DNA of 37,612 nt from Dysgonamonadaceae bacterium (lineage in GTDB: Bacteria; Bacteroidota; Bacteroidia; Bacteroidales; Azobacteroidaceae), in assembly GCA_031263685.1 (NCBI GenBank), contig JAISFI010000071.1, forward strand, positions 1 to 37,612, given 5' to 3'. Positions 1,114 through 36,639 of this stretch are shown here, piece after piece (position 1 is the first letter of the stretch; the number at the start of each line of letters is the position of its first letter). The notes under the pieces were generated by a model. That model saw only the letters and a list, made by a program, of their open reading frames with translations. It was not told the origin of the DNA and did no database searches. The translations under genes and the position numbers were made by a program.

Positions 1114-1154
1114 TGACGGAATTATAATTGTCATATATTTATTGCGAGACGAAC

Positions 1155-2258: not shown

Positions 2259-2284
2259 ATAAACGATTCAAAATTATATGCGCT

Positions 2285-5200: not shown

Positions 5201-5359
5201 CAAAAAATCGGAGCAGAGTTGATACGCATCTTCGCCAGTGGAAGCAACATCTTTACCTGGTCTCACATCGATAACTTCGACCCGGAAGTCATCAAGTCGA
5301 GCGGTGAAGTATATCCGCAGCAAACAGTCTACAACCTTGGTATAAACATCAATTTTTAA
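2285..5359 (+). CDS. SusC/RagA-family TonB-dependent transporter (SusC1)
   Basis: 1024 residues from the ATG at 2285, chosen because a signal peptide (MIKHFLSTYTFLLVLLFASA...NA-Q, 1-26) starts there; earlier in-frame starts would overlap the lyase gene. In order: carboxypeptidase-regulatory-like domain (about 33-105, with GVVYDSQGETLIGVSI and GRFSI), TonB-box-like segment (VLDEVVVVGYG, 109-119), plug domain with the SusC signature (VDGMERE, VESISVLKDASSTAVYGVRGANG, 190-228) and a large outer-membrane beta-barrel to the C-terminal aromatic strand NLGININF. It imports oligosaccharides across the outer membrane using TonB-ExbBD energy. It partners with SusD1, whose ATG begins 4 bases after this stop. 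Full length for the family. Confidence 0.95.
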   Translation: MIKHFLSTYTFLLVLLFASATVTNAQPSAPNNKIQGVVYDSQGETLIGVSILLKGTGNGTVSDVDGRFSIAAPPASLLVFSYLGYETQTVTVQADMNNLKIVMQENSKVLDEVVVVGYGVQKKQTVTGAISTIKTKELTDIPVSNLNNALAGKVPGLVTIQPSGRPGEDVANIYVRGQSTWVDSSPLIIVDGMERESFSQINPNEVESISVLKDASSTAVYGVRGANGVILLTTKRGVEGKPRISLSANWGLQQPTQIPEFLDSYHQLLLKKQAYLNDNKNPEAEEPALLSNEALEGFRLGTDPYKYPNVVWYHELTKKFTPQQQYSIDVSGGTPVIKYFISLGYLSQSGIFKYTNLQKDYHADTYYHRFNFRSNLDVKINKYQTLTTNISGRIQEKNGFPNVDNLIQTLIAKSPYRHPMFNPDGTLSAIEGSGNPISKIAYSGYENTKTNNYDLTGLLHNDLSFITPGLSFDASVSYTSNVGVLKKYTDQIDTYYYSPITGKYAQITEDEPFAYSEERYPESFKRESLQLKLNYNKTIASLHDLKFTAVYNQQKDFSNISIPNVLMGYAGRVEYIYANKYMGEFNVGYNGSENFAKGHRFGLFPAFSVGYIISEEKFMERIQPILPYLKIRASVGWVGNDKIGNNQRFLYQGAYNYYPASNINQSQNYMFGTNNPSNSGGIAELRSENRELTWETALKRNIGIDGNLFQNNLLSFSFDYFYEYRKNILMQARSLMQTTGIPSPVYNIGEVKNYGFEADLTHRHKIASVEYYLKGTFSFARNKIINYDDPGKTPDYQRYAGYRIGQFRGYQVIGFFENEDDIARSPSQASLGGPIIPGDLKYLNYNDSDNVIDDKDIIPIGYSNIPEITFSFTPGFSWKGFDASVLFQGAAHSSVFFTSNAGYEFGGAAGGGQVSKVHQNYWTPENRDAAYPSLHVNTKHSNKNLNSFHLKKGDYLRLKTIQIGYTLPRAQSQKIGAELIRIFASGSNIFTWSHIDNFDPEVIKSSGEVYPQQTVYNLGININF

Positions 5360-5363
5360 CGTC

Positions 5364-7064: not shown

Positions 7065-7100
7065 CCGGTTTTCAGTTTTTAACTCTTAGCATATAAATCT

Positions 7101-9878
7101 ATGACTCCTATCAAAAAAATATCCTTTCTGATTTTTATCTCTCTGTTGCCGGCAGGCTTCAGGGGACAGGAAATCGATACCGTAAGCTACGCTGCCGACC
7201 GTACCGGAGAGATCGCTATCGCTTACGGCAAAACGACGAAAGAAGCCGCTGCTTCTGCTCTATCTGCCGTTTACGCTATCGACCTGCAAAAAAATGCAGT
7301 CACTACACTGGAAGAATCCCTGAACGGGACACTCTCCGGCCTGTATTCCGCTAAAAACGGCGGACAAAAATTCGGCGCCCGAAACTACAATTTCTTCATC
7401 CGTGGAAAAGCAACTACCGCCGATGCGTCGCCGCTGATCCTCGTCGATGACGTGGAAGCCAATATTGAACTCCTCGATTTCAATGAGGTGGAAAGCGTAA
7501 ACATCCTGAAAGACGCCTCGGCGCTGGCCATATACGGCATGAGAGGCGCCAATGGCGTGATTCTCATCAAAACCAAACGCGGCTACAATGCACCAAACAC
7601 TGTTAAGCTCGATATCCGGATGGGGATACAAACGCCATTGTCTTGGGGTAAGCGCCTGAATGCTTATGATTATTCCACACTGTACAACGAAGCGCTGACA
7701 AATGATGGAGGCGTTGGAATTTACACTCCGGATGCCTACCTGAACAATTCCAATCCTTACGCCTATCCCGATGTCGATTTCGGCGACCTGTTCCTGAAAC
7801 AGCAGTCGCTTAGCCAGCAATATAACTTTACCGTACAGGGAGGAACTCAAACTGCCCGATACTTCTTTCTGACCGGATATACGAAGCAGGGCGGACTGTT
7901 CGCACTCCCGGACAAACATGACGGGATAAATCAAAAAAGTTATGAACGCTATAACTTCCGTTCAAACATAGACGTAAATTTGGGCGCCGGATTCAACATG
8001 AGTGTCGATGTATCGGCCATCTTCGACTATAACCGTTCGCCGTGGATGAACAGTTCCGGAAATGCCAATGCACTCTCCAATGCACTGGTCAATTTGATTG
8101 TCAACACGCCGGCCAATGCTTTTCCGGTATGGAACGGGGATGGAAGTTTAGGAGGCACCTCCGTTTATCTCAACAATCCGCAAGGCATTTTACAGCGGGG
8201 CGGAACAAGACGGGACGAGCACAAGCTGCTGGCATCGAACGCAAAGATCTCTAAAGATCTTCCTTTCATCACACAGGGACTGAAGGTTTATGCCGTCTAT
8301 CACTTCGAGAATTACAATTCATCCTATAAATCGGCCTACAAGCAGTTTGCCGTATATCACTATAATCCCGCTGCCGACACCTACACCGCCTACGGTACTA
8401 ACGACACGAAAACAACTACTGCCGGAGGACAAACTTCGGAATATTACCGCAACAACAACATTTTCGCCGGACTGGAATACGAGCGAACGTTCAACCGGCA
8501 TCAGGTTGAAGGCCTGGCCTTCTTCAACCGTTCGCAGTCGAGCGTGAGCGGCGACGTGCCCGACTACCACTATCAGGGATGGGCTGCGCGTGCACAGTAC
8601 GGATACGATCACCGCTACTATGCCGAACTCTCGGCGGCCTGCCAGGGTTCAAACCGTTACCGGCACGGCAAGCGGTACGGGTTTTTCCCGGCCATTGGCC
8701 TGTCGTGGGTTTTATCGAACGAAAACTTCCTGCAAAACAGCCCGGCTGTAGATTTTCTGAAGCTGAGAGTCTCGACCGGAATAAACGGAAATGACAAAAC
8801 CCTCGGCAATCGTTTTGCCTGGCGTCAATCCTGGTACACGGGATCGGGCTACGGCTTCGGAAATCCGAATGCCGTGGGCGACGGCTCTTATGAAGGAGCG
8901 CTGGCCAACGAAAACGCTACCTGGGAAAAAGCAGCGAAAGCGAACGTGGGCATCGACTTCTCGACCCTGGGCGGCGATTTGTCGGCAACGGTCGATTTGT
9001 TTTCCGAAAGAAGAAAGCATATTCCCGTCGAAGAAAGCAGCCAGACACCCTCACTGATTGGTATCGCCCTGCCGCAGGTGAACGAAGGAATCATCACAAA
9101 CAAAGGCGTCGAAGCGGCGCTCAATTACAGCAAGACGACAGGTTTCTGGCGCTTTTCGATTGGCGGAAACTTCCTCTTTGCCCGCAATAAAATCGTCGAC
9201 CTGAAAGAGCCCGATTATTCCTACGACTGGATGTACCGGAAAGGAAATTCCATCAACACGATATACGGACTGGTGGCCGACGGTATTTACCGGACACCGG
9301 AAGAAATCGCCCACGCTTCCAAATCTTCCTACACGACCCTCACGCCGGGCGACATTCGCTATGTGAATCAAAATCCCGGCGATGACGATATTATTAATCA
9401 GGCCGACAGGGTGCCTATCGGCAACGCCTTCCCCGAAATCTTCTATGGCCTGCAGTTGGGCGTTTCTTACAGGAACTTCGACTTTGCCGGCTTCGGAAAA
9501 GGGGTGGCGCGGAGCGACGTTTATTTCAAACCGGAACAGTTTTCGGTCTACGCACGCGACAATCGCTGGCAACCGTCACAGCCTGAAGGGCAACATCCCA
9601 AACTCAGCATCTCCAACGTTCATAACAGCCAGACATCTTCCTTCTGGTTGCAATCGGGCAGCTATTTTCAAATCAGCAGCCTGGAATTGGGCTATACCCT
9701 GCCGCAATCCATACTCAAGAGCCTGTCTATTGCCGGCGTTCGTGTTTACTGTAATGTGAACAACGTATTCACGTTCAGTTCCGAACGCGAAAAGCGCAAT
9801 CCGGAGGCTTTACTGGCAGGATACACGGAATATCCGCTGTTGAGAACGTATCTGTTTGGCATCTCCGTTAAATTATAA
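7101..9878 (+). CDS. SusC/RagA-family TonB-dependent transporter, short N-terminus (SusC2)
   Basis: 925 residues, about 100 shorter than SusC1. After a signal peptide (MTPIKKISFLIFISLLPAGF, cleavage near RG-Q) it goes almost directly to a TonB-box-like stretch (GEIAIAYGKTTKEAAASA) and the plug (SLNGTLSGLYS; FFIRGKATTADASPLILVDDVE; VESVNILKDASALAIYGMRG). The carboxypeptidase-like regulatory domain present in SusC1 is missing. The beta-barrel looks complete to the end (TYLFGISVKL). Such shortened SusC proteins occur in second-pair transporters, but the loss may alter its TonB interaction. Paired with SusD2 12 bases downstream. It probably takes up a second form of the same glycan, by context only. 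Confidence 0.93.
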   Translation: MTPIKKISFLIFISLLPAGFRGQEIDTVSYAADRTGEIAIAYGKTTKEAAASALSAVYAIDLQKNAVTTLEESLNGTLSGLYSAKNGGQKFGARNYNFFIRGKATTADASPLILVDDVEANIELLDFNEVESVNILKDASALAIYGMRGANGVILIKTKRGYNAPNTVKLDIRMGIQTPLSWGKRLNAYDYSTLYNEALTNDGGVGIYTPDAYLNNSNPYAYPDVDFGDLFLKQQSLSQQYNFTVQGGTQTARYFFLTGYTKQGGLFALPDKHDGINQKSYERYNFRSNIDVNLGAGFNMSVDVSAIFDYNRSPWMNSSGNANALSNALVNLIVNTPANAFPVWNGDGSLGGTSVYLNNPQGILQRGGTRRDEHKLLASNAKISKDLPFITQGLKVYAVYHFENYNSSYKSAYKQFAVYHYNPAADTYTAYGTNDTKTTTAGGQTSEYYRNNNIFAGLEYERTFNRHQVEGLAFFNRSQSSVSGDVPDYHYQGWAARAQYGYDHRYYAELSAACQGSNRYRHGKRYGFFPAIGLSWVLSNENFLQNSPAVDFLKLRVSTGINGNDKTLGNRFAWRQSWYTGSGYGFGNPNAVGDGSYEGALANENATWEKAAKANVGIDFSTLGGDLSATVDLFSERRKHIPVEESSQTPSLIGIALPQVNEGIITNKGVEAALNYSKTTGFWRFSIGGNFLFARNKIVDLKEPDYSYDWMYRKGNSINTIYGLVADGIYRTPEEIAHASKSSYTTLTPGDIRYVNQNPGDDDIINQADRVPIGNAFPEIFYGLQLGVSYRNFDFAGFGKGVARSDVYFKPEQFSVYARDNRWQPSQPEGQHPKLSISNVHNSQTSSFWLQSGSYFQISSLELGYTLPQSILKSLSIAGVRVYCNVNNVFTFSSEREKRNPEALLAGYTEYPLLRTYLFGISVKL

Positions 9879-9890
9879 ATTTCTACCCCT

Positions 9891-11588
9891 ATGAAACCGT
9901 TAAGTAAAATATATTTCTTCCTTTTTCTCGCACTCATCCTCTCCTCCTCGTGCGAAGACTTTTTAGATCCCGCCAAAGATGGAACGCTGAACCAGGAGGA
10001 TGTTTGGGGAAGCACTCGCCGTTCTTTCGGCCTGCTCAATAACGCCTACAACAACCTGATCGGAAACTACAGCCGGATTTCGGACGCCATGCTCGCCGCC
10101 GGTTGCGATGAAGCGCTGCACGCCGATCCGGCCAACCCCATTAAAGGCTTCAACGATGGCACCTGGAGCAAGTATAATCTCGTAGAAAACGTTTGGGACA
10201 ACTGCTACGAAGGTATCCGAAAAGTAAATCTCTTCCTGGAAAACGCCGATAATATCACGCTCCCGAAAAGAGATTCCAATACCGGTACCGACGAATCCAT
10301 TGTCCGAACCATCGACCGGATGAAAGGAGAAGCCCGATTCCTGCGCGCCTTCTTCCACTTCGAGCTGGTGAGAAGATACGGTGGCATTCCCGTCATCGAC
10401 CGCACGCTGACGAAGGAAGAAGCCAGGTGCATGGAACGACAATCGATCGACAGTTGTTTTCATTTCATCTTCAACGATTGCGATTCGGCAGCGGTGAGGC
10501 TTCCGGGAAGCTATCTGAACACAGTGCCCGGATTCGACGACACGAAGGATGTAGGACGCGCTACTTCCTGGGCGGCAAAAGCCCTGAAAGCGCGCGCCCA
10601 ACTCTACTATGCCAGTCCGCTCTTCAATCCGGAAAATGACCGGTCGCGCTGGAAAGACGCCTATCTTACGGCCGAAGATGTGATCCGGAGAGGTCCTTTC
10701 AGTCCCTGGCAATTCAACAGCAACGGTAATATGACCAACCTGTTTGTCAGCAACTCAACAATGGGACTCTATCACAAAGAAATCATCTTCTCCACCAGCT
10801 ATACTGCCAATACAACTACCGAGCGGCTCAATGTACCGATCTCTTATGGAGGGAAGGGACTTACCTGTCCTACCCAAAATCTGGTCGAAGCGTTCAACGA
10901 TCCGCTGTTCCTGAACCGCGATCCTCGACTGGCGATGACGGTGCTGCAAAACGGCGACCTGCTGAACATCAACGACCGGTCGGACAGTATCAAAACATAC
11001 ACCGGCGGGAAAGACGCTCCCGAATCCGACCCCTCGGCCTCAAAAACGGGATACTATCTCGCCAAATTTGTAAAGCAGGCAGCGGCCTCTTCCACACCGC
11101 CTGCCGTATGGGAAGGAAGAACGGTCAATACCACCAAGACCAAAATCCTGTTCCGGCTGCCGGAAATCATCTATATCTTCGCCGAAGCCTATAACGAATA
11201 TCACGCAGCGCCCAGCAACGATGTATATATTTATCTCGAAAGAATTTTGACGCGCGCCGGCGTCTCCCTGTCCGGTGGCGCTTTGCCGGACATGAATCAG
11301 GCAGAAATGCGCCGCTTTATCCGCAAGGAACGGCAGGTAGAACTCGCTTTCGAAGAGCACCGATTCTTCGATATTCGCCGCTGGCGACTGATGGACGATC
11401 CCGCCGAACGGGAAAAATACCTCAACATTCGCGGACAGCGAATTTCTATCCAGGCCGACGGTACCCCGAACACGCGAATCGAAACCGTTCAGCAACGCGT
11501 ATGGGACGATAAAATGTATTTCTATCCCATTCCCGAATCGGAAATCATTGCCTCGAAATCCTTAACACAAAACGAAGGATGGGAGTGA
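9891..11588 (+). CDS. SusD/RagB-family outer-membrane lipoprotein (SusD2)
   Basis: 565 residues. The signal peptide MKPLSKIYFFLFLALILSSSC gives a lipidated Cys at 21. SusD hallmarks: ENVWDNCYEGIRKVNLFLEN, EARFLRAFFHFELVRRYGGIPV, LPEIIYIFAEAYNEY, KERQVELAFEEHRFFDIRRW and the closing YPIPESEI...NEGWE. It forms the surface glycan-binding partner of SusC2. Its stop codon TGA overlaps an ATG (TGATG at 11586-11590) that opens a frame through the downstream repeat array. Confidence 0.95.
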   Translation: MKPLSKIYFFLFLALILSSSCEDFLDPAKDGTLNQEDVWGSTRRSFGLLNNAYNNLIGNYSRISDAMLAAGCDEALHADPANPIKGFNDGTWSKYNLVENVWDNCYEGIRKVNLFLENADNITLPKRDSNTGTDESIVRTIDRMKGEARFLRAFFHFELVRRYGGIPVIDRTLTKEEARCMERQSIDSCFHFIFNDCDSAAVRLPGSYLNTVPGFDDTKDVGRATSWAAKALKARAQLYYASPLFNPENDRSRWKDAYLTAEDVIRRGPFSPWQFNSNGNMTNLFVSNSTMGLYHKEIIFSTSYTANTTTERLNVPISYGGKGLTCPTQNLVEAFNDPLFLNRDPRLAMTVLQNGDLLNINDRSDSIKTYTGGKDAPESDPSASKTGYYLAKFVKQAAASSTPPAVWEGRTVNTTKTKILFRLPEIIYIFAEAYNEYHAAPSNDVYIYLERILTRAGVSLSGGALPDMNQAEMRRFIRKERQVELAFEEHRFFDIRRWRLMDDPAEREKYLNIRGQRISIQADGTPNTRIETVQQRVWDDKMYFYPIPESEIIASKSLTQNEGWE

Positions 11589-11797
11589 TGAACGAAATTG
11601 GGGGCGCGCCCCGGAACTTTGGGGGAACGCCCCCAGTCTTTGGGGGAACGCCCCCAATCTTTGGGGGAACGCCCCCAATCTTTGGGGGAACGCCCCCAAT
11701 CTTTGGGGGAACGCCCCCAATCCTTGGGGGAACGCCCCCAATCTTTGGGGGGCGCCCCCGAAAAGCAGAAGACATTAATTTTCAGTTTTATAAATAA
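11588..11797 (+). CDS. Possible coupled ORF encoding Gly/Pro heptapeptide repeats
   Basis: The start codon at 11588 overlaps the susD2 stop (TGATG), the usual geometry of translational coupling. The 69-codon frame runs through the 21-bp array, so each DNA unit gives one heptapeptide of the type GGTPPIF, and ends with a charged tail (RPRKAEDINFQFYK). Caution is needed: the repeat is also stop-free in other frames on both strands, so an open frame here is weak evidence. If made, the product would be a short low-complexity Gly/Pro protein without signal peptide. I rate it as unproven. Confidence 0.2.
   Translation: MNEIGGAPRNFGGTPPVFGGTPPIFGGTPPIFGGTPPIFGGTPPILGGTPPIFGGRPRKAEDINFQFYK
11597..11764. 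repeat. 21-bp GC-rich palindromic tandem repeat array (8 units)
   Basis: Units begin at 11597 (degenerate), 11618, 11639, 11660, 11681, 11702, 11723 and 11744 (degenerate, last). The six central units are nearly identical, with one or two substitutions in the first and sixth. Each unit holds a 7-bp inverted repeat around a four-base loop: TTGGGGG-AACG-CCCCCAA. Transcribed, it would form a string of at least six strong hairpins between susD2 and the first beta-helix gene. There is no T-run after it, so it is not a classical terminator. Possible roles are mRNA stabilization, damping of downstream expression, or a replication-slippage locus. Confidence 0.9.
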
Positions 11798-11831
11798 CAA
11801 ACAGTCGTTTAATCTTTAAAAAATTCAAATC

Positions 11832-13724
11832 ATGAAACGAATGAAAGTACTTTTTTTATCGCTTTTAGCCATTTCGGCTATACAGGCAAAGGTGTATTAT
11901 GTAAGTCCCGACGGCGACAATTCCGACGGTTCTTCGTGGGGAAAAGCATTCCACTCGCTCCTGGATGCGCAGCAAACGGTTAGCAATCCCTGCGAAATCT
12001 GGGTGAAACAGGGAACATACAATGTGGTAGATACTACGTTGACAATGATGAACGGCGTAAACGTGTACGGCGGATTTCTGGGAAATGAAGCAAACCTGAA
12101 CGCAAGGAACAGCGATCCTTCGCTAACGATCCTCAACGGAAACAAGACAAAGCGGATCCTCACTGCCGCCGATAACCTGACCGTCGAAACCGTTTGGGAC
12201 GGCTTCACGATTCAAAATGGAAACAGCGGTAATGCCGGCGGCGTTTCCCTGTTGAAAAACGCGACCCTGCAAAACTGCATCATCCAGCAAAATAAAAATG
12301 CCGTCAACAGCGGTGGCGGCGTGTATATGAACACCAATGACACCGATTCCGTCAAGCTAATTAACTGTATCGTAAGGGAAAATGCAGTATATTACAATGG
12401 AACGGCAACATCTCCCGCCGGTGGCGGCGGCGTTTATATCCATGACGGAGCGGCAGCAGTTATTCGCGCCTGTACCATTGAAAATAACAAGGTAGATGGC
12501 GACAGCTATACCGGCTCCAGAATGTACGGTGGCGGGGTCTTTATGAACGACGGCGCCATAGAACAGTCCACCGTCTCGAAAAACAAGGCGACGAATATCG
12601 ATTTTGAAACCGGTAAGCTTACCACCGTCGGTTTCATCAACGCCGGCGGTATCATGGTAATGACGCCTGCGGCAGGAAGCGTGCGAATCAGCAACTGCGT
12701 GATAGAAGGAAACGTGGCAGAAGTACAATCCGGCGGCGGCATCATGATCAATCCCTATTGGACAAGCAGTGTGGTGGCAGCCGGCGTAACGGTCGAAAAC
12801 ACGATCATCGCCAATAACTATTCCCGCCAGCAGGGCGGCGGCGTTTTCTGCGATTCTCAAAACGAAGGCTCGACTGCTGCCTACAACTTCATCAACTGCG
12901 TAATCGCCAACAATGAAGCCAATCTGAATCCGGGTGGCGGCGTTTTCATCAACAACAAAGCCGGATCGACCGTCAAGTTCACCAACAGCACCATCGTAAA
13001 CAACCGAATGAACACCTATAATTATGGTGGAGCCGGAATTTACTACAACAATATCTCTGCCGACATAACCAACTGTATCTTCTGGGGAAACCTCAATGCA
13101 GGCACAACGCCCCTGAAACATCATTTGAGAACAAAAGACGTTGCCGGCAACCGGGTCATTTACTGCGCTTTCGACCAGCGTTACGTAGAGTCGGAAATCA
13201 CATCGGCCTCCGATCCGACCGATATTCAGGGCACGCTTTCGCTCGCAAACGAAAATGACGGTGCAAGCGGCAATCTGGTACAGTTTATCCGTCCAACATC
13301 GTTCAACGGCATTGCCAAAGACGAGGCACAGCAAACTGAAATCTCGCAGGCGCTGTGGGCTATCCGTCCAACTTCGGCCTGTGTAGATGCAGGCGCTACG
13401 GTCAGAGACTTGAAATACGACCTCCTCGGCACCGAGCGTCCTTATGGAGGTAAATATGACATCGGCGCCTACGAATACAACCCGGCAACAGGGTCTTCGA
13501 TACGCCAAACGACCACCGGCAATGCTCCGAAAGCTTACGGCATAAAGGGCGCCATTGTAATCGACAATACGGATGCCGCCACGCAGGCAACAGTCTATAC
13601 GCTTCTGGGCGCAAACTGCAAGACTGCGATGCTGAAGGAAGGTGAAAACAGAATAAACATCGCTCAGCCGGGTATTTATATCGTTAAAGCCGGAAATAAT
13701 ACTGCAAAAGTGTTAGTCAAATAA
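11832..13724 (+). CDS. T9SS-sorted right-handed beta-helix protein (1)
   Basis: 630 residues. Signal peptide MKRMKVLFLSLLAISAIQA, then the motif KVYYVSPDGDNSDGSSWGKAF that opens many secreted parallel beta-helix proteins. Repeated rungs of the type GGGVYI/NCIVRENAV (about 120-420) indicate a pectate-lyase-like right-handed helix. Around 505-550 is the ACVDAGA...DIGAYEYN segment of 'choice-of-anchor Q' proteins. The last ~65 residues form a T9SS-type tail (ATVYTLLGANCKT...GIYIVKAGN...KVLVK). It may bind or cleave polysaccharide outside the cell; no catalytic residues could be assigned. A close paralogue follows 30 bases downstream. Confidence 0.85.
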   Translation: MKRMKVLFLSLLAISAIQAKVYYVSPDGDNSDGSSWGKAFHSLLDAQQTVSNPCEIWVKQGTYNVVDTTLTMMNGVNVYGGFLGNEANLNARNSDPSLTILNGNKTKRILTAADNLTVETVWDGFTIQNGNSGNAGGVSLLKNATLQNCIIQQNKNAVNSGGGVYMNTNDTDSVKLINCIVRENAVYYNGTATSPAGGGGVYIHDGAAAVIRACTIENNKVDGDSYTGSRMYGGGVFMNDGAIEQSTVSKNKATNIDFETGKLTTVGFINAGGIMVMTPAAGSVRISNCVIEGNVAEVQSGGGIMINPYWTSSVVAAGVTVENTIIANNYSRQQGGGVFCDSQNEGSTAAYNFINCVIANNEANLNPGGGVFINNKAGSTVKFTNSTIVNNRMNTYNYGGAGIYYNNISADITNCIFWGNLNAGTTPLKHHLRTKDVAGNRVIYCAFDQRYVESEITSASDPTDIQGTLSLANENDGASGNLVQFIRPTSFNGIAKDEAQQTEISQALWAIRPTSACVDAGATVRDLKYDLLGTERPYGGKYDIGAYEYNPATGSSIRQTTTGNAPKAYGIKGAIVIDNTDAATQATVYTLLGANCKTAMLKEGENRINIAQPGIYIVKAGNNTAKVLVK

Positions 13725-13754
13725 AAACAATTCAATTATCATAATCTAACAATA

Positions 13755-15407
13755 ATGAAACAAGTATATTTATTTTTAAGCGCTTGCATGCTCGCCGGTA
13801 TGGTTCATGCAACAGTATATTATGTAAGTCCGGAAGGCGATAACAGCGACGGAAAGACTTGGGCTACGGCTTTTCAGTCGCCCGCAAAAGCACTGTCTAC
13901 CGTCACTTCCGGCAGTCACGAGGTGTGGGTGAAACAGGGCACATACATTTCGGCAACAACGCTCAAATGGATTCCCGGCGCCAATTTTTACGGCGGCTTT
14001 ACCGGTACGGAAATCAGCCGTGACGAACGAAACACCGATCCTTCACTCACCATCCTGGAGGGAACCCGTACCAGTGGCGTTTTAACTACGCCACAATCGG
14101 CCTACAGCACGCTGTGGAACGGCTTTACCATTCAAAAAGGAAAAGCCACCGGCGGTGGCGGCGGTATTTTCCTGCAAAGGAACACAACGCTCGAAAATTG
14201 CATCGTGCAGGATAACGAGGCTACCAATTACGGTGGCGGCGGTATTTATATCCAGGATGCAAATAATGGCCGGATACAAATCCTCAACTGTATTGTGAGA
14301 AACAATAAACTCACGCCAACGGCGGCCGATCGCGACGGCGGCGGTATCACCGTAAGGGCAACCAAATCGTCGGACGTCCTGATCGGCAACTGTATCATTG
14401 AAGGCAATATTGTCGATGCAGGCGCCCAGTCAAGGGCTTTCGGCGGGGGAATCAGTTTGCTGTCCGGCGCTACCGTAGCAAATTGCATCATACGCAACAA
14501 TCAGGTAACAAAGCCTTCGGGAAGTAACTGTAATGGCGGCGGTATGTATATTTCTCTCGATGATGCAGGCGTTTCGGCCAACATCAGCAACTGCATCATC
14601 GCCAATAACTTCTGCGATGCCGGCAACGGCGGTGGCGTCTTCGTCACCGAGAAAGCAGGCAACGTATCTTTCGGCAATTGCCACATCGTAAACAACCAGA
14701 TAACCTACGCCAGCTATGGCGGTGGCGGCATTTTTACGAAAAACCCGGCAACTGTTGTCAATTGTGTTTTCTGGGGCAATGACGCTCCGGGAAGTACCCC
14801 CAAACATTTCCGCACAGACGGCGGCGGAAGTGTGAGCTATTGCGCTTTCGATGCGCAGGCCAACGGTACTGCTTTCGGAACGGCCACTGTTGCAGATAAT
14901 ATAACGGTCGAAACCGAAAACCTCGGCAACCTGGCAAATGCTCATTATGCGGCTTTCGTTCGTCCAACCGCATTTGCCGGAAAGGCATCGAACGACATTG
15001 AACTGGCCGAACTGCAGCAGGCCGACTGGTCGCCGCTCGCCACTTCCGCCCTCATCAATGCCGGAACAACTGTCGCGGTAATTACCGATGATATGGCCGG
15101 AATCGCCCGCCCGCAAGGAACTGCCTACGATATTGGCGCTTACGAATTTGAAGAAAAAACCACCCCCGGTACAGGTATCGACCCGGCGCAGGTGAAGACG
15201 GCTTTCGATGCGCCTGTCTATACAACATCGGGAAACATTGTCCTGAAAAATGCGGAAGATAACGCGTCGGCCATCATCTACGATATTACCGGACGCACCG
15301 TGAAAAATGTGCATCTCGCAGTTGGAGAAAACACAATCTCCGTTCCATCCCGTGGTCTTTATTACGTAAAAACAGGCCAATCATTACTCAAAGTAATGGT
15401 ACGCTGA
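13755..15407 (+). CDS. T9SS-sorted right-handed beta-helix protein (2)
   Basis: 550 residues, a tandem paralogue of the preceding protein: same signal-peptide type, same opening (TVYYVSPEGDNSDGKTWATAF), same YGGFTG and NERNTDPSLTIL blocks, same Gly-rich rungs (GGGGIYIQ, NCIVRNN, GGGMYI), the same anchor-Q motif (INAGTTV...DIGAYEFE) and a clear T9SS type A tail (SAIIYDITGRTVKNV...RGLYYVKTG...KVMVR). It is about 80 residues shorter, mostly through fewer helix rungs. Secreted, surface-located, probably acting on or binding the PUL substrate. Enzyme class not determinable by eye. Confidence 0.85.
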   Translation: MKQVYLFLSACMLAGMVHATVYYVSPEGDNSDGKTWATAFQSPAKALSTVTSGSHEVWVKQGTYISATTLKWIPGANFYGGFTGTEISRDERNTDPSLTILEGTRTSGVLTTPQSAYSTLWNGFTIQKGKATGGGGGIFLQRNTTLENCIVQDNEATNYGGGGIYIQDANNGRIQILNCIVRNNKLTPTAADRDGGGITVRATKSSDVLIGNCIIEGNIVDAGAQSRAFGGGISLLSGATVANCIIRNNQVTKPSGSNCNGGGMYISLDDAGVSANISNCIIANNFCDAGNGGGVFVTEKAGNVSFGNCHIVNNQITYASYGGGGIFTKNPATVVNCVFWGNDAPGSTPKHFRTDGGGSVSYCAFDAQANGTAFGTATVADNITVETENLGNLANAHYAAFVRPTAFAGKASNDIELAELQQADWSPLATSALINAGTTVAVITDDMAGIARPQGTAYDIGAYEFEEKTTPGTGIDPAQVKTAFDAPVYTTSGNIVLKNAEDNASAIIYDITGRTVKNVHLAVGENTISVPSRGLYYVKTGQSLLKVMVR

Positions 15408-15422
15408 TACACTAAAAAAACT

Positions 15423-15449
15423 GCAGGGGCAAGCTCTGCCTGCCCCTGC
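15423..15449 (-). terminator. GC-rich hairpin between beta-helix and GH88 genes
   Basis: A 9-bp perfect stem, GCAGGGGCA/TGCCCCTGC, with a 9-base loop. The adjacent run of seven A lies on the left, so the U-tract of an intrinsic terminator would be on minus-strand RNA, opposite to the surrounding genes. On the plus strand it is only a hairpin. Function unclear. Confidence 0.45.
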
Positions 15450-15504
15450 TTCGCAAGGACGAGATGCTATTTCCGTCAAATATTACTCAAAACAAACCCA
15501 TGTT

Positions 15505-16779
15505 ATGAATACAATTTGTAAATGTGTACTTTCTCAGGTTTTGCTATATTTCTGCCTTTCGGGTTGCTCGCACATTCCGGACAACGACAGGAATACGACA
15601 AAAGAATTACAGTTCATCCGGGAAAACATAGATTTTATTGCCCAACAAACAACCCTCATGCTCGAAACAACAGGCGCCCCTACCGGCAAGAACTATCCCC
15701 GAAGCATGAACGATGCCGGCCAGCTCGTAACTACCGGCATGTATGACTGGACGCCCGGCTTCTTCCCCGGCTCGCTGTGGTATCTCTATGAACTGACCGG
15801 CGACTCTGTCTGGAAAGACAAAGCCGAACAGTGGACGCAAACATTGGAGCCGCTGAAAACCTTTACCGGCCATCATGACCTGGGATTCATGATGTATTGC
15901 AGTTACGGAAACGCCAATCGCCTGGCGCCCAAGCCCGAATATAAAGACATTCTCCTCCAAAGCGCTTACTCCCTCGCTTCCCGCTTTTCGGAAGAAACGG
16001 GATGTATCAAGTCGTGGAATCACCGCGTTGCATGGGATGGCGAAACGGAGTGGTTTTATCCGGTCATCATCGACAATATGATGAACCTGGAAATGCTTTT
16101 TTTTGGCGCAAAAACATCGGGCGATAAACGCTTGTACGACATTGCTGTAACACATGCCAATACTACGCTGCAACATCATTTCAGGGAAGATTTCAGTTCG
16201 TACCATGTGGTAGATTACGATACCGTTACCGGCGTTGTGAAACATCGGGCTACCTGCCAGGGTTTCAGCGACAACTCAACATGGTCGCGCGGACAGGCCT
16301 GGGCTATTTACGGTTACACGATGATGTACCGCGAAACAAAGGACGCTCAATACCTGGATGCTGCCGTGAATCTCGCAGCTTATTATCTGTCCCACCTACC
16401 GGAAGATTTAATCCCTTACTGGGATTTTAATGCCGGCGAAGCAGGCTATACGCCCGACAAGGATTCTTACGCGACACAATACTGGGAAAAGCCGAAAGAT
16501 GTTTCCGCCGCCGCTGTCGTATGTGCTGCTTTTTTTGACTTGGCAACATATACGCACCGTTCGGAATATACCGACAAAGCTATTCAAATGCTTCACAACC
16601 TGTCGTCCGAAAAATATCGCGCCGAGTTGGGGAAAAATGCTCATTTCATTCTGATGCACAGTGTGGGCAGTATTCCTCACATCAGCGAAATAGACAAGCC
16701 GCTGGTTTATGCCGACTATTATTTTTTGGAATCGCTGGTCAAATATACCGCTTTTTTAAGAAACTTTACATCTTTATGA
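15505..16779 (+). CDS. GH88 unsaturated glucuronyl hydrolase, lipoprotein
   Basis: 424 residues. The lipobox LSGC places the lipidated Cys at 21. The (alpha/alpha)6-barrel pattern of glycoside hydrolase family 88 is clear: MYDWTPGFFPGSLWYLYELTGD, HHDLGFMMY with candidate catalytic Asp125, YPVIIDNMMNLEML with candidate Asp190, and the signature WSRGQAWAIYGYTMMYRET. These enzymes remove the 4,5-unsaturated uronic acid that polysaccharide lyases leave at the non-reducing end, by hydration of the double bond. It therefore completes the pathway begun by the lyase-fold protein at the start of the cluster. Lies 97 bases after the second beta-helix gene, with a hairpin between. Confidence 0.92.
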   Translation: MNTICKCVLSQVLLYFCLSGCSHIPDNDRNTTKELQFIRENIDFIAQQTTLMLETTGAPTGKNYPRSMNDAGQLVTTGMYDWTPGFFPGSLWYLYELTGDSVWKDKAEQWTQTLEPLKTFTGHHDLGFMMYCSYGNANRLAPKPEYKDILLQSAYSLASRFSEETGCIKSWNHRVAWDGETEWFYPVIIDNMMNLEMLFFGAKTSGDKRLYDIAVTHANTTLQHHFREDFSSYHVVDYDTVTGVVKHRATCQGFSDNSTWSRGQAWAIYGYTMMYRETKDAQYLDAAVNLAAYYLSHLPEDLIPYWDFNAGEAGYTPDKDSYATQYWEKPKDVSAAAVVCAAFFDLATYTHRSEYTDKAIQMLHNLSSEKYRAELGKNAHFILMHSVGSIPHISEIDKPLVYADYYFLESLVKYTAFLRNFTSL

Positions 16780-29282: not shown

Positions 29283-31802
29283 TTATTGCAACGATTCTTG
29301 TCTTCTTACCTCCACCGCATCTACCGGAAACTCATAAAAGTTATCCGCCCCCTTACCAAGCATGATTTGGTCTAAAATAATGTAAGGCGACAAGGCAGTA
29401 ACGGAAATCGTTATTTTCCCCGCTTTCGGGAAAGTATATGGAACAATAGAGATAGCTTGTCCTCGCAATACGTTCTGTTTCCATGTTTCACTACGTCCGA
29501 CAACGCTGTAATCCCATTCGTGGATTGTTTCTCCATTAATTGATAAAGCGATTTTCATGCCTTTGCCATTCACATCGTGGTTGGGGAGAACGCCTGTCTT
29601 TATCCAGTATTCGCCGGCTTCGGGAATATCGAATGTAAACCGGAGCGAATATCCCTGTTTCATTTGTACGGCAGAAAAGCTATGCCCCAAGCCTTCGATG
29701 ATTGTTCCGTTTTCCGGCAGATTATCCGCTTGCGATGCGTTCAGCGCTTGTGTAAAATCGTTTTTATCACTTGCCGGCTGTTGGACGGAAGACTGTTGGA
29801 CGGAAGTCGATTCAGTCGATTCAGAAAACGTGGGTTTATCAAAAACCGGCAGTTTACGCGGTTGAAAATCCATGATTCGCTTCCATTTGCCGTTTTCCAT
29901 GCAGTTGTAGTCGGCGGTTATCTTTTCTATTTCCCGGTATGCCTGCATGCTTTTTGCCGCATTATTTTCTTTTTGTATCGTATCTGTTTCCCAACGGGAT
30001 AGTTGGGCGTACAACCACTTTTGATTTATCAGCGAAGCGCCGCGAACGGGATATTCCACCAATTGGAAAAAAGCGCTTTGCCTGTGCGCCGGAATCGTTT
30101 GCTTAATTTGTTGTACAGCAACTTCCAGCAAGCGATAATCCTGTATCCTGCGTTGCAGTTCATTCCGGAAATCCGGATGATATTCGGAATCCTGTACCGG
30201 CGTCAATTGGCGGGGATAGCCCGGTTCTTCCACACGACTCCAAGCGGTATGTTCGGGCTTTCGGAAATTTGCCAACCGGTAATATTCCTTTATGATACCG
30301 GTAATTTCCGTCGACAGATTACTTCCAAATTCACGTGCCGCCCAATGTTGCAGATGATCGAACGTAGAGACGGGACACGCTTCTTCCTGACCGATGTTCC
30401 ATGCCAAATCCAGGAAATATTCCGTCAGGTATTCGGCGGGTTTAATATCGCCTGCGTTCAGCATCCATAGCTTATTTGCACCGTGCTCATACGCACGCTG
30501 CATTTCGGTGTAAATCAGTGCGGGCGAAGTGGAAGCTAACCAGAGATAATCGTGCGGACGTCCCCAATAGGAAACATGATAATAGACACCTGCGCCTCCG
30601 CTGCGTTGTTGCTCCCGGTCATTGCTCAATCGGCGGATATAGCCGTAATTATCGTCACACCACACAAGTGTAACATAATCGGGTACCTCCAAGCCTGAAT
30701 CATACACTTCCAATACTTCCTTGTAAGGTACAAATTGCTGCGGCACATCGGCAGGGTTTTTATTGACATATTTCTTGATTAATTCGGTTTGGTCGGCAAT
30801 GACCTGCTTGAGGGCGTTTTTGTATTCTTCGACGGTTTTTACTCCCTGCATCATTCCGTCGTGCTTGCCACGCATACCTATGGTGAGAATATTGTCCGAA
30901 TGAGGTAATTCCTCTAATCTTTCAGACCAATAGTTTAAAATTTCGTTTCGATTTATCCGGTAATTGTATTCACCTTTACCTGCCTTGTCCCATTCGGATG
31001 CCGAGTTGCGCATCATAGGCTCGCAATGAGACGTTCCGACTACAATGCCGTATTTTTCGGCTATTTGTCGATTACCTTCCACAAAATAGAACGGTACAGT
31101 ACATTCGTGCATGGCAGGCCAAATCGTATTGGCGCGCAAGCGCAGCAAGAGTTCAAAAATCTTTTCGTAGGCTTCGGGGCCGACAGCGCCTTTCTCCGAT
31201 TGCGGGGCGAGCGTTTGTGTTGCCCACGGCATTAATCCCCAATCTTCGTCATTAATAAATATACCCCGGTATTGCACCGAAGGCGCTTCTTGCACGGTTG
31301 TTTCGGGAAACGAAAAAGACTGTGCTTTTGCAGGTTTTACATCTGCAAAATAGTGCCATGGCGAAACGCCAATCATTCGCGATAATTCCAACAGGCCGTA
31401 GGCTGTTCCGCGAGGATCGCTACCGGCAATAATCAAACACTCAATTGAACATTCGCGGTCGCCATCCTTCAAAGTTGTCAGTTGAAAAGTTTCCCATTTA
31501 CCTGAAATCGCCGACAAATCTATTTTTCTGCTTTTTATTAACCGGTCAATTTCCTTGCTTTGTCCTATCGTTCCGGCAATAATCTGAACATTGTTTCGAT
31601 TTTCGGATCGTTGTAAGATGGCGTCAAAGACGGTTTGTACATCTTCTTGCAAAAGCGCCACTGCCGTCTGAACCACTTGTTTTTCATTTTGATCTACATG
31701 AATAGAAACGGTGCGGTTGGTTTCAAATAAAACCCCGGCGCACACGCTGTTACCTATTGAGCTAACAACGAACAGCAGAGTGATGATGCATACTGTTTTC
31801 AT
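29283..31802 (-). CDS. GH115 alpha-glucuronidase
   Basis: 839 residues from the ATG at 31802, where a signal peptide (MKTVCIITLLFVVSSIGNSVCAG) begins; the longer frame from 31853 overlaps the upstream gene. Family 115 landmarks: IIAGSDPRGTAYGLLELSRMIGVSPWHYFADV, YRGIFINDEDWGLMPWA, LRLRANTIWPAMHECTVPF, GIVVGTSHCEPMMRN, TIGMRGKHDGMM, VTLVWCDDNYGYIRRLS and VYYHVSYWGRPHDYLWL. A C-terminal beta-sandwich (about 690-839) matches the GH115 C-terminal domain. These enzymes remove 1,2-linked glucuronic or 4-O-methylglucuronic acid from xylan or other acidic plant glycans. Probably periplasmic or surface. Cotranscribed with the GH28-GH42 gene 22 bases upstream. Confidence 0.93.
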   Translation of the reverse strand: MKTVCIITLLFVVSSIGNSVCAGVLFETNRTVSIHVDQNEKQVVQTAVALLQEDVQTVFDAILQRSENRNNVQIIAGTIGQSKEIDRLIKSRKIDLSAISGKWETFQLTTLKDGDRECSIECLIIAGSDPRGTAYGLLELSRMIGVSPWHYFADVKPAKAQSFSFPETTVQEAPSVQYRGIFINDEDWGLMPWATQTLAPQSEKGAVGPEAYEKIFELLLRLRANTIWPAMHECTVPFYFVEGNRQIAEKYGIVVGTSHCEPMMRNSASEWDKAGKGEYNYRINRNEILNYWSERLEELPHSDNILTIGMRGKHDGMMQGVKTVEEYKNALKQVIADQTELIKKYVNKNPADVPQQFVPYKEVLEVYDSGLEVPDYVTLVWCDDNYGYIRRLSNDREQQRSGGAGVYYHVSYWGRPHDYLWLASTSPALIYTEMQRAYEHGANKLWMLNAGDIKPAEYLTEYFLDLAWNIGQEEACPVSTFDHLQHWAAREFGSNLSTEITGIIKEYYRLANFRKPEHTAWSRVEEPGYPRQLTPVQDSEYHPDFRNELQRRIQDYRLLEVAVQQIKQTIPAHRQSAFFQLVEYPVRGASLINQKWLYAQLSRWETDTIQKENNAAKSMQAYREIEKITADYNCMENGKWKRIMDFQPRKLPVFDKPTFSESTESTSVQQSSVQQPASDKNDFTQALNASQADNLPENGTIIEGLGHSFSAVQMKQGYSLRFTFDIPEAGEYWIKTGVLPNHDVNGKGMKIALSINGETIHEWDYSVVGRSETWKQNVLRGQAISIVPYTFPKAGKITISVTALSPYIILDQIMLGKGADNFYEFPVDAVEVRRQESLQ

Positions 31803-31824: not shown

Positions 31825-34800
31825 CTATTCTTTCCAAACGCTAACTCCTGCACAGGAGATGTTTTTTCCTCCTATAATATACTTCGTATTTGCCTGCAAC
31901 GGTAGCGTATATGTTTTATCGGCGTAATTCACTGCTATGCCGAAGCCGTCGCGGTACTCGATATGCAGCCCGGCCGGTAAATCCTGCAATGGAATAGACA
32001 AGCGGGCATACAGTTTTTTCAGCACAGCTTTTTCCATTTGTCCGTCCCTGGAATCCACGCCGATGTAGGTAAGCGTACCTTTCCCCAAACGTCGGAAAGT
32101 AATGGCGGGGCGTCCTTCGTAGAAATCGCCCGAATAAGTCGCCCATGTTTCTGTGTCATTTTCGGGAATTAATACTTCGCCCCAACTTGTCCATAGATAT
32201 TTTTGTCTGTCGAATACTACGTTATCCGGCGTTTGCGGGAGTAATAAATCATAAAAATCGATTTTCGCACCTATCAACGAATAGATCGGTGCGGCAAAAG
32301 GCGCTTCAAACAATTGTCCGGTGCGGTTTTTATGCCCGGTGCGGCAGGTTAAAACCAGGTTGCCGCCACGTTCCACGTATGTTGTCCAACGCTTCACCAG
32401 TTCCTCGTCGATCATTTCGTAAGCGGGCGCTATGATAACCGGATAGTTTGAAAAATTGTTTCGTTCATCCAGAAAATCTACCGGTGCACCGAAAGATTTC
32501 AGGGCATTGTAATAGTGATTGATGTGCCGTTCGGTATTCCATTCGCTTGTCTGCGGGTTTCTGCTCATTTCCCAAGCGTTTTCGTGGTTGTAAAGTATGC
32601 CGGTGCGCCGTTTTTCGTAGGCGGCGGGATTGTTGGCGCCTTCGCTGTAATGCTTGCGCAGTTCCTTTACTTCTTTGATAAATCCGGCATATTCCAAACC
32701 GCCCGGCGTAGGCGTGACACCGTCGGCGCCAACAATGCCGTAATGATATAACTCCGTTCCGTAAGTGGGCTGGCGATAACGGTAAGTACACACAAACCGG
32801 CTGCCTCCGCTAAACACCTGCCACAACCACAGGCGTACCGCGCCGGGTAACGGTTGCGGGTTGATGCGTCCCCAGTTGACTTGTCCGGGTTGCAGTTCCA
32901 TCACACCGTAAACACCGTCGATGGTGCGGAAAAAATCATTGGCTTTGGCAATCCGTTCTACGGGGCCCAGTCGATAACCTTTGCGACCGATGCCATAATT
33001 TTCGCCAAATACCATGTAGCGGGTATAAGAATGAAAATTCAGTTCGTTGCTTTTCCGCAGATGTCCGTCGCTGTATTCGGGGATGTAGTTAGTTGTAATC
33101 CACTGATTGTTGCCGCAATGGCGCCGGATAGTATTTGTCTGCTCGTCCAGAAAGGAAGTCATTTCTTCTGTCGAAAAACGGTTGTAGTCGAGTATCTGAT
33201 GCGAATTCATAAACATCTGCGAGAGACGCGGAATATTAATCTCGTCAAAACTGCTGTATATTTGGCTCCAGAAAGCCGCTCCCCAAGCTTTGTTCAAGGG
33301 TTGAATATCTCGGTATTTGTTTTTCAGCCATTGGCGGAAACGTTTTTGGGCATCCTGTCCGTAATCGTGAGCGGGACGGGGTTCATTGTCCAATTGCCAG
33401 CCGATGATGCGGGTATCATTCCCGTAGTGTTGCGCCAGTTTGTCAATCATACTCAGAGAATATCTCCGGAAATAATTGTTGGAAACCGACGGATGTTGAC
33501 GTGCACCGTGGTCTGCATGTGTTCCGCTTTCGTTTTCAATCAGGATATCGGGATGTTCGCGCACCAGCCAAACCGGCGGTGTGGCAGTCGAGGTACACAT
33601 GATCACCTTCAATCCGTTGCGGGCGGCCATGTCGATCGCACGGTCGAGCCAGGCGAAATTGTAAACTCCTTCAGACGGTTCGAGTTGCGCCCATGCAAAC
33701 TCGGCATAATGCACGAAATCGAAACCAAGCGCTTTGATTTGTTTGAGGTCGCGTTCCCATTGCGATTCGTCCCAATGTTCGGGATAATAATAGACGCCGG
33801 TAATAGTCAAGTCACTGGGGTCGAAAAATTGGGAAGGATGAATCTTATCGTACTTCATATTTTCTTCCGTGATATTTTCTACATGGATGGCTTTTTTTAC
33901 AAATTGCTTCACCATTCCGACATGTATGTTTCGTATTTCTACGTTTTTCACCGGGAGTTTGGCGTCGCCTTTCAGTTCATAGATAGCATCGGTCGTTTCG
34001 CAATATACATTTTCCAAATGGACGCCTTCTATGCGGGTGATGCGTTCTTCGTAGGTAGGAACGAGGGTTTTCCATTGATAAAGGACATCGGTGTCGATTT
34101 CGAGTAAGCGTTGCGTAGTGCCCGATGTTACATTTTTCATGTAAATATTTTCGACAAATCCGCCTCGCCGGTGATTGGTTTTGATGAAAAAGAAACGGTC
34201 TACCGATTTCGGCGCCGAACAATCGTGCAGGTAGATATTGCGGATGCCTCCCGACAGTTCGCTGCCGATACCCAGCAACGTGTGTCCGGCAAGCACGTTA
34301 CAATGACGAATGACAATGTTTTCGCAGGGCGTATTCAATCGCCAGGCATCGCGGTTGCGTCCCGACTTGATCACTACAGCATCATCTCCCTGGTCGAAGG
34401 TACAGTGTTCCACTAAGAAATTGCGACTCATTTCAAAGTCGATCCCGTCGTTGTTGTGTCCATGCGCCTTGACGTTCAAGTGACGGACAAGTCCGCCGTC
34501 GCACAGATACAGGTGAATAGTCCAGAAAGGACTTTCTCGTATGCTGAATCCGTCCAGCAAGACATTTTTGCATCGATTGAAATGAATCAGGTGGGGTCGC
34601 AGGTTGTTATCGCCTTCCGCCATCCGGCGCTGTTCTACCGGTACATCGGTCGATGCCATGGTATAAAGCTTTTTCAATGCCTCCAAATGCGCCTGGGGAC
34701 GGGGAAACCATTTTTTCCAAGTAGTCATTTGAGGCTTTAACATTCCTTTTCCCGTAATGGCAATATTTTCACAATTGAAGGCATAGACTAAGGGTGAATA

Positions 34801-35271
34801 GTTGTAACATTCCATTCCTTCCCATGAGGTCATAACGGCAGGCAGGTAATCGTTGGGATTATCGGTAAAACTCAATATAGCGTTTTCTTCCAGGTGCAGA
34901 TTGACGTTGCTTCTGAAGTGAATGGGACCTGTCGCCCATGTTCCCGCGGGGATGATGACACGACCGCCTCCAGCTTTGTTACAGGCGTCAATTGCTTGGG
35001 CTATGGCGTGGCTGTTATTTGTTTCTCCGCCCTCAACTGCGCCGAAATCCGCAATCGAAAAATCCTGTTGCGGGAAACGGAAAACGCGGATGAACGGCAT
35101 TAGAAAAGGTGCATTGACTGTTACAGAATCGTAAGGGACGGGATTATAGACCGTATCTTGGAGCGCCATGTTCGAATTGCCGACGGGAAAGACGGCTATT
35201 CTCTCTTTCGACGTAAACGAAAGGCAGATAAGAGCTAATAAGAAACTCAGCGTAGAGATTTTTTTGTTCAT
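31825..35271 (-). CDS. GH28-GH42 fusion glycosidase
   Basis: 1148 residues, signal peptide at 1-20. N-terminal half (about 70-470) is a GH28 polygalacturonase-type beta-helix: FSIADFGAVEGGETNNSHAI, then HNNDGIDFE (candidate Asp275), GDDAV (Asp296/Asp297), AGH (His330) and FIK (the usual RIK with Phe for Arg). From about 488 (LTITGVYYYPEHWDESQW) a GH42 beta-galactosidase begins: GWQLDNEP with candidate acid/base Glu630, VMELQPGQVNW with candidate nucleophile Glu792, then the trimerization-like domain (VPVIIAPAYEM-type block, about 955-1040) and a C-terminal beta domain. It should cut galacturonic-acid- and galactose-containing pectic side chains in one polypeptide. The frame is unbroken. Leads the minus-strand operon with GH115. 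Confidence 0.92.
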   Translation of the reverse strand: MNKKISTLSFLLALICLSFTSKERIAVFPVGNSNMALQDTVYNPVPYDSVTVNAPFLMPFIRVFRFPQQDFSIADFGAVEGGETNNSHAIAQAIDACNKAGGGRVIIPAGTWATGPIHFRSNVNLHLEENAILSFTDNPNDYLPAVMTSWEGMECYNYSPLVYAFNCENIAITGKGMLKPQMTTWKKWFPRPQAHLEALKKLYTMASTDVPVEQRRMAEGDNNLRPHLIHFNRCKNVLLDGFSIRESPFWTIHLYLCDGGLVRHLNVKAHGHNNDGIDFEMSRNFLVEHCTFDQGDDAVVIKSGRNRDAWRLNTPCENIVIRHCNVLAGHTLLGIGSELSGGIRNIYLHDCSAPKSVDRFFFIKTNHRRGGFVENIYMKNVTSGTTQRLLEIDTDVLYQWKTLVPTYEERITRIEGVHLENVYCETTDAIYELKGDAKLPVKNVEIRNIHVGMVKQFVKKAIHVENITEENMKYDKIHPSQFFDPSDLTITGVYYYPEHWDESQWERDLKQIKALGFDFVHYAEFAWAQLEPSEGVYNFAWLDRAIDMAARNGLKVIMCTSTATPPVWLVREHPDILIENESGTHADHGARQHPSVSNNYFRRYSLSMIDKLAQHYGNDTRIIGWQLDNEPRPAHDYGQDAQKRFRQWLKNKYRDIQPLNKAWGAAFWSQIYSSFDEINIPRLSQMFMNSHQILDYNRFSTEEMTSFLDEQTNTIRRHCGNNQWITTNYIPEYSDGHLRKSNELNFHSYTRYMVFGENYGIGRKGYRLGPVERIAKANDFFRTIDGVYGVMELQPGQVNWGRINPQPLPGAVRLWLWQVFSGGSRFVCTYRYRQPTYGTELYHYGIVGADGVTPTPGGLEYAGFIKEVKELRKHYSEGANNPAAYEKRRTGILYNHENAWEMSRNPQTSEWNTERHINHYYNALKSFGAPVDFLDERNNFSNYPVIIAPAYEMIDEELVKRWTTYVERGGNLVLTCRTGHKNRTGQLFEAPFAAPIYSLIGAKIDFYDLLLPQTPDNVVFDRQKYLWTSWGEVLIPENDTETWATYSGDFYEGRPAITFRRLGKGTLTYIGVDSRDGQMEKAVLKKLYARLSIPLQDLPAGLHIEYRDGFGIAVNYADKTYTLPLQANTKYIIGGKNISCAGVSVWKE

Positions 35272-35386: not shown

Positions 35387-35452
35387 GGTTAAAATTTAGC
35401 CGGTCAGTTGCGAAATATATAGATTTCACTACTGACCGGCTAAATTTTAACC
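35387..35452. repeat. Perfect 22-bp inverted repeat with 22-base spacer
   Basis: Arms at 35387-35408 and 35431-35452 are exact reverse complements (core TTTAGCCGGTCAGT). The spacer contains an inner inverted repeat, GAAAT-ATATAG-ATTTC, so the whole 66 bases can fold into one long hairpin. There is no T-run on either side, so it is not a standard terminator. It lies 3' of the sigma-factor operon and 5' of the GH28-GH42 promoter. It could be a Rho-independent-like roadblock, a processing site, a large palindromic operator, or a small non-autonomous element. Confidence 0.9.
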
Positions 35453-35541: not shown

Positions 35542-36132
35542 TTAATCTTTTTCTTTGAGCGCTTTCAGTTCTTCCAGACTTTTTAATACGGAACCGATGT
35601 TTTTGTCGTAAACCCTCCGATAGTACCAATATAAGAATAATCCGCAAAAGATTATCATGCACGACAATACAATCCAAAGAAACACACTAACTTTTGCTTC
35701 GGCATAATAAAACACGGCAATAACCGTAATAATGAACAGAGCAATTATACTGATTATTTTTTCCCATTTCACCTGAAGATTGTACCGGTTGACGTAATAA
35801 ATATTATTACTGACGCTTTTTGCAAAATCGAATTTCATTAATCCGTAAATTTTGTACGAATACCATATTACACTTATCGCCAAAAGAACGATGGCATAAA
35901 TCAGTGCAAAAAGGGCAAGTTTGTTTTCAAAACGTTCTAAAAAGTTCCATATCACAGGAATGAATACAATACTTCCCACCACATTGAATACATCCCAATT
36001 CAGTAACCTGTTAACCGATTTATTGGCTTTACCCTGTATGATTTCCAAAATAATTGTCTCTTTCAAGAGGTCATTTTCCTTTAACCGGCTGTCCAATGCA
36101 GCCCATGTTTTTTTTAATTCATCCAATTCCAT
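35542..36132 (-). CDS. Membrane protein, possible anti-sigma factor
   Basis: 196 residues, not matched to a family with certainty. A charged helical N-terminus (MELDELKKTWAALDSRLKEN, cytoplasmic) is followed by four hydrophobic segments: about 46-62, 70-92, 123-143 and 148-168, and a basic C-terminus (KSLEELKALKEKD). It starts 12 bases after the stop of the ECF sigma gene. Membrane proteins with an ELxxLKxxWxxL opening commonly follow ECF sigma genes in Bacteroidota. A role in holding or modulating the sigma factor is inferred from position; no classical zinc anti-sigma motif is present. Confidence 0.7.
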   Translation of the reverse strand: MELDELKKTWAALDSRLKENDLLKETIILEIIQGKANKSVNRLLNWDVFNVVGSIVFIPVIWNFLERFENKLALFALIYAIVLLAISVIWYSYKIYGLMKFDFAKSVSNNIYYVNRYNLQVKWEKIISIIALFIITVIAVFYYAEAKVSVFLWIVLSCMIIFCGLFLYWYYRRVYDKNIGSVLKSLEELKALKEKD

Positions 36133-36144
36133 GTTCTTTTGATT

Positions 36145-36639
36145 TTAAAGATTTGACATTTTTCTTAATTTATCTTTGATTCGATTCAGTTTTGAAGCTA
36201 TGTTGCCGACAGTCAATCCGGTAATATCGGCGATTTCCTGATAGGGTTTTTCTTCCAGATAAAGCAGGATAATCGTTTTTTCCATCGTTTTAAACCGGTT
36301 AATCAAACGGTACATTTCTTGAATCTCTTCATCCATACTTTCCTGTTTTACCAGCGATTCGGCAAGCATCGCTACGGGAATACTCTGCTTCGGACGGTTT
36401 CGGTCTTTTCGCATAACCGATATACAGGTATTCATGGCTACCCGGTAAATCCAGGTGGATACGGAACATTCATTCCTGAATTTTGCAAAACCTGTCCAAA
36501 GATTACAAATAACCTCCTGATATAAGTCGGCAAGAGGAAATTCTTCCGACATATAGAAAGAGCAGACTTTATAAATTACCCGTTCATGTTGTTGGATGAT
36601 TTCGATAAATGCACGTTCTATTCCAATCTTGTCCATCAT
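36145..36639 (-). CDS. ECF-type RNA polymerase sigma factor
   Basis: 164 residues. Sigma region 2 with ADLYQEVICNLWTGFAKFRNECSVSTWIYRVAMNTCISVMRKDR (core binding and -10 recognition) and region 4 helix-turn-helix LEEKPYQEIADITGLTVGNIASKLNRIKDKLR (-35 recognition). Length fits ECF factors. The next gene encodes a membrane protein that may control it. Two adjacent ATG codons open the frame (36639 and 36636). Upstream AACCTT and CGTCTA motifs suggest autoregulation. Regulon unknown; a link with the PULs is not shown. Confidence 0.93.
   Translation of the reverse strand: MMDKIGIERAFIEIIQQHERVIYKVCSFYMSEEFPLADLYQEVICNLWTGFAKFRNECSVSTWIYRVAMNTCISVMRKDRNRPKQSIPVAMLAESLVKQESMDEEIQEMYRLINRFKTMEKTIILLYLEEKPYQEIADITGLTVGNIASKLNRIKDKLRKMSNL

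Follow-up and report, generated by a model that had tools for sequence, protein, structure and literature searches.

A GH28 and a GH42 glycoside hydrolase joined in one reading frame in a Dysgonamonadaceae bacterium: a probable bifunctional RG-I exo-glycosidase

The window analysed here is the whole stretch of 37,612 nucleotides of a contig from a Dysgonamonadaceae bacterium. Its minus strand carries a gene in which two glycoside hydrolases share one frame, followed downstream by a GH115 gene. The features are the following:

31825..35271, minus strand: GH28-GH42 fusion, a single open reading frame of 1148 aa with an ATG start and no internal stop
35212..35271, minus strand: putative hydrophobic, signal-peptide-like N-terminal stretch, residues 1-20, MNKKISTLSFLLALICLSFT (from reading the sequence only)
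33847..35133, minus strand: GH28 domain of the BT4155 (alpha-D-galacturonidase) type, residues 47-475 (NF049892, 5olp_A and motif counts)
33811..33849, minus strand: junction, residues 475-487 (from 26 GH42 N-termini and 30 GH28 C-termini)
32659..33789, minus strand: GH42 catalytic TIM barrel, residues 495-871 (Pfam, and alignment with 1kwg)
31996..32607, minus strand: GH42 trimerisation domain, residues 889-1092 (PF08532, 187.7 bits)
31828..31971, minus strand: weak GH42 C-terminal domain, residues 1101-1148 (PF08533, 19.9 bits, slightly below the cut-off of 21)
29283..31802, minus strand: GH115 gene (PF15979, E = 2e-129; synteny and reading of the DNA), with its likely start at the ATG at 31802, 22 nt past the stop of the fusion

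The initial annotation had described this polypeptide correctly in its coordinates, its length and the order of GH28 before GH42. Pfam places Pect-lyase_RHGA_epim at residues 72-125 and GH28 at 221-468, followed by GH42 (495-871), GH42M (889-1092) and a weak GH42C (1101-1148), the complete GH42 enzyme corresponding to residues ~481-1148.

By its profile score and motifs, the GH28 half is a member of the alpha-D-galacturonidase family that acts on the pectin rhamnogalacturonan-I (RG-I) and is represented by BT4155 of Bacteroides thetaiotaomicron, and it is predicted to hydrolyse the GalA-alpha-1,2-Rha linkage. It scores 864.4 bits against the NCBIfam equivalog NF049892 (BT4155; cut-off 800) over positions 20-454 of the 454 of the profile, and its nearest solved chain is 5olp_A (E = 3e-236), from an entry deposited as a "pectate lyase". 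An assignment to the polygalacturonases was rejected, as the half reaches 174 of 600 bits for PglA and 138 of 600 for PglB, both far below the cut-off. The earlier wording, "pectin-type hydrolase", was too loose: it has to be narrowed to the RG-I alpha-D-galacturonidase family and away from polygalacturonase, the name from which the annotation is corrected here. The residues D275, D296, D297, H330 and K364, which correspond to NND, GDD, GH and the K of RIK, are conserved in all 79 GH28 relatives compared (identity of at least 42%). The initial annotation had also pointed to a Phe in place of the Arg of the RIK motif and had seen in it a hint of changed specificity. The replacement is real (F362, at the position of the Arg of polygalacturonases), but it is no private change of the fusion protein: the same 79 relatives have Phe in 71 cases and Tyr in the other eight, and 5olp carries Phe as well. 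Since Phe at this position is common to the BT4155-type family, it gives no sign of a new specificity. The GH28 half thus passes the family cut-off of BT4155 and shares its motifs, including the Phe, whereas BT4155-type enzymes are mostly free-standing. Its placement in the tree is weakly supported (89).

The domains and catalytic glutamates of the second half are those of a complete GH42 beta-galactosidase, for which activity and trimerisation are predicted. PF02449 (GH42, 401.9 bits) and the trimerisation domain both exceed the Pfam cut-offs, and solved GH42 beta-galactosidases can be aligned with the half over almost its whole length. In the fusion protein, E630 and E792 align with E141 and E312 of the Thermus A4 beta-galactosidase 1kwg, which we take to be the acid/base and the nucleophile, respectively, and hence to indicate the roles of E630 and E792. 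The former is conserved in 62 of 64 GH42 sequences (the two exceptions are alignment gaps) and the latter in all 64. Compared with GH42 enzymes of the BT4156 type, the half likewise has both catalytic glutamates and the trimerisation domain, but its own signal peptide is gone and a GH28 domain precedes it. In the tree it groups with the sister genomes L088, L110 and L111 (support 98), following the family tree. Its nearest relatives come from Candidatus Symbiothrix, Dysgonomonas macrotermitis and similar organisms, from which the host is probably a termite-gut bacterium. That one of the two halves has degenerated or is carried along without catalytic activity, for instance as a binding module, is scarcely credible, because the invariant motif residues are all in place for both families and each half is 68-80% identical to its aligned relatives, most of which are free-standing.

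The junction was located by comparison with free-standing relatives. Most GH28 relatives end 0-29 residues past the point equivalent to residue ~475 (30 C-termini compared), while in GH42 relatives a stretch resembling a signal peptide precedes the mature N-terminus, an example of which is DPHQFFPDKDLSLVGVYYYPEHW (26 N-termini compared). In the fusion protein the junction peptide is ENMKYDKIHPSQFF and the join reads ENMKYDKIHPSQFFDPSDLTITGVYYYPEHW, leaving ~4-6 residues between the end of GH28 and the mature GH42 N-terminus, which starts at about residue 480-481 with no trace of a second signal peptide. The short linker that had been placed near residues 470-487 is therefore even shorter, from ~475 to ~480. 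Just before it, at ~33858 on the minus strand, an ATG preceded by GGAAG encodes M472; in principle it could start a GH42 protein without a signal peptide, but as Bacteroidota rely little on such sites it is probably due to chance.

An assembly or binning artefact that merged two distinct genes in silico has to be considered, since the fusion is seen in a single draft genome (446 contigs, 6.29% contamination) and the genes are kept apart in the nearest relatives. Yet the frame runs on across the join, which lies between the end of the GH28 domain and the first residues of mature GH42, and no remnant of a signal peptide is left there; G+C and third-position G+C are even across it, with no jump; and the downstream GH42-GH115 order is that of the sister genomes L088, L110 and L111. 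A chance chimera would rarely meet all of these together, and such an artefact appears very improbable. The clean join, the even composition, the synteny with GH115 and the placement of the GH42 half in the tree lead us to favour a genuine fusion.

Separate genes are the norm, as had been noted at first: relatives encode both enzymes apart and in several cases next to each other. GH42 is followed by GH28 in Dysgonomonas (L019, L021/L170), B. xylanisolvens (L016) and F. pokkalii (L014). The Dysgonomonas and B. xylanisolvens loci resemble the fusion in having both enzymes, adjacent and on the same strand, but their genes are separate and GH42 comes first, whereas GH28 comes first in the fusion. 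Since this order is opposite, dropping a single stop codon from such an arrangement would not have produced the fusion. The B. xylanisolvens gene pair is also consistent with BT4156 being a GH42 enzyme, as we assume. The search for proteins with the same domain order that the initial annotation had proposed found no other GH28-GH42 protein in ~1,405 genomes, some of them drawn twice (48 from the same family, 393 from the order, 395 from the phylum, 395 from the class, 101 from a second family, in which one complete genome encodes a GH42 of 75% identity, and some smaller sets), and none among the 80 best GTDB loci. In the large draws scoring covered the top two candidates of each genome, of which a full-length fusion would be the first. 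One reported candidate, a frame of 1600 aa in genome G456, turned out on reading to be a GH42 frame of 700 aa. No named GH28-GH42 fusion was found in the literature searched either, and within the data searched this fusion has no earlier report.

The pathway to which these enzymes would belong has been described in B. thetaiotaomicron, where BT4155 cleaves galacturonate from rhamnose, BT4156 and two other proteins are the exo-beta-1,4-galactosidases, and BT4155 and BT4156 work in one RG-I locus (PMC8002723). The genome that carries the fusion also holds RG-I lyase (PL11) and GH105 genes, together with a GH106 that is a fragment at a contig edge. In relatives, GH42 sits with GH106 and with GH115 or GH28, whereas only GH115 lies beside the fusion on its contig, and the window contains no RG-I genes besides these two. 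Taken as a whole, the evidence is best explained by a bifunctional, most likely periplasmic RG-I exo-glycosidase that originated from an in-frame fusion of a GH28 and a GH42 gene, a reading to which we would give a probability of about 0.8. In that case, a BT4155-type GH28 gene would have been fused in frame to the start of the GH42 gene of a GH42-GH115 operon, with loss of the GH28 stop and of the GH42 signal peptide. The N-terminal GH28 would remove non-reducing-end alpha-D-galacturonate linked 1,2 to rhamnose from the exposed end of the RG-I backbone, and the C-terminal GH42 would remove beta-linked galactose from its side chains. As GH42 enzymes trimerise, the mature particle could contain up to three GH28 and three GH42 sites. 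The likely benefit would be a single export event, a fixed 1:1 dosage and two trimming steps held close on the same oligosaccharide.

A galactose-bearing rhamnose can adjoin the galacturonate to be cut, which makes it plausible to have both steps in one particle. A stronger version, in which the fused trimer passes RG-I oligosaccharides between its two exo-sites, so that GH42 clears the galactose from the rhamnose and GH28 then cuts the adjoining galacturonate, is speculative and seems rather unlikely; if it were true, gut Bacteroidales would have a general route to such periplasmic processing units in the repeated fusion of RG-I enzymes encoded next to each other. AlphaFold2 modelled the GH28 half of the joined protein well (43 rows) and the GH42 half poorly (mean pLDDT 62, pTM 0.46), and thus gives no basis for how the two sites face each other. 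The coupled removal of galactose and galacturonate from a branched pectic glycan, as first proposed, stands in so far as both enzymes are joined and RG-I is the likely glycan, while the coupling itself was inferred.

The same GH28 or GH42 families are joined to other pectin enzymes in several relatives, each time with a different partner and never GH28 to GH42. These RG-I-type fusions are:

L166 and L165: GDSL esterase-GH42 (two sister genomes forming one clade, support 99)
L011: GH43-GH42, BT_3657-like
L022, L023, L025 and L028: GH28-PL11
L032: GH28-GH43
L057: DUF4861-GH28-GDSL
L065: PL22-GH28-GDSL
L093: alpha/beta-hydrolase-GH28

In L113 (1330-3930) and L046 (2491-5091), GH28 is joined to a C-terminal domain of ~390 residues that has no Pfam match. 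Further fusions are found in the genome of the GH28-GH42 protein itself (L174, L176, L177): GH105-GH43-DUF2264, DUF4861-GH105-F5/8 type C with a secretion tail, and GH88-like-GH92. Several of the partners that are fused in relatives are encoded by separate, consecutive genes in the Dysgonomonas-type RG-I operon L170 (GH2-GH106-GH42-GH28-GH43-GDSL-GH43). Seen beside these sibling fusions in relatives and in its own genome, the GH28-GH42 fusion is a single case within a recurring reshuffling of enzyme modules directed at RG-I and related glycans. The pattern suggests that, in gut Bacteroidales, neighbouring RG-I genes have been joined time and again into multicatalytic proteins.

Among the characterised multicatalytic enzymes of polysaccharide loci, intramolecular synergy was found in some and was absent in others (PMC8417218). 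One of them, BeCE15A-Rex8A, is similar to the present protein in that a single chain carries both catalytic domains, connected by a very short linker, and in an architecture that is rare within Bacteroidetes, but differs in its xylan substrate and its families (PMC8417218). The fusion could be real but neutral, genes of one pathway having been joined and their products acting independently with no gain. This is a serious possibility, if somewhat short of an even chance: several characterised multicatalytic enzymes lack intramolecular synergy (PMC8417218), and the module fusions are many and each restricted to a lineage, as frequent neutral joining would give. Nevertheless, the loss of a stop from the GH42-then-GH28 order of relatives would yield GH42-GH28 and not the order observed, and the clean removal of the signal peptide together with the repeated fusions of RG-I partners suggests selection, or at least tolerance. 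The GH28-GH42 protein and its sibling fusions offer ready-made natural constructs with which to ask whether exo-enzymes gain from being physically coupled.

Some further observations concern the surroundings of the fusion gene. GH115, which follows GH42 in the sister genomes, adjoins GH28 in Phocaeicola/Alistipes, and is recurrently paired across Bacteroidales with genes for RG-I galacturonidases or galactosidases; this pairing suggests that the substrates of some GH115 enzymes are uronates of pectin or arabinogalactan and not xylan. On the other side, just upstream of the fusion gene, an ECF-type sigma factor gene is followed by a small membrane-protein-like ORF with no Pfam match (35542-36639, minus strand), a putative anti-sigma-like pair. 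Between this pair and the fusion gene lies a near-perfect palindrome of 66 nt (35387-35452; arms of 33 nt, 91% complementary), which may act as a terminator or represent a small mobile repeat; no other copy of its arm sequence was found in the window or in the other loci compared. At the opposite end of the window, a second and unrelated polysaccharide locus on the plus strand (1128-16779) contains an alginate-lyase-like protein, two SusC/SusD pairs, two right-handed beta-helix proteins and one GH88/GH105-like enzyme.
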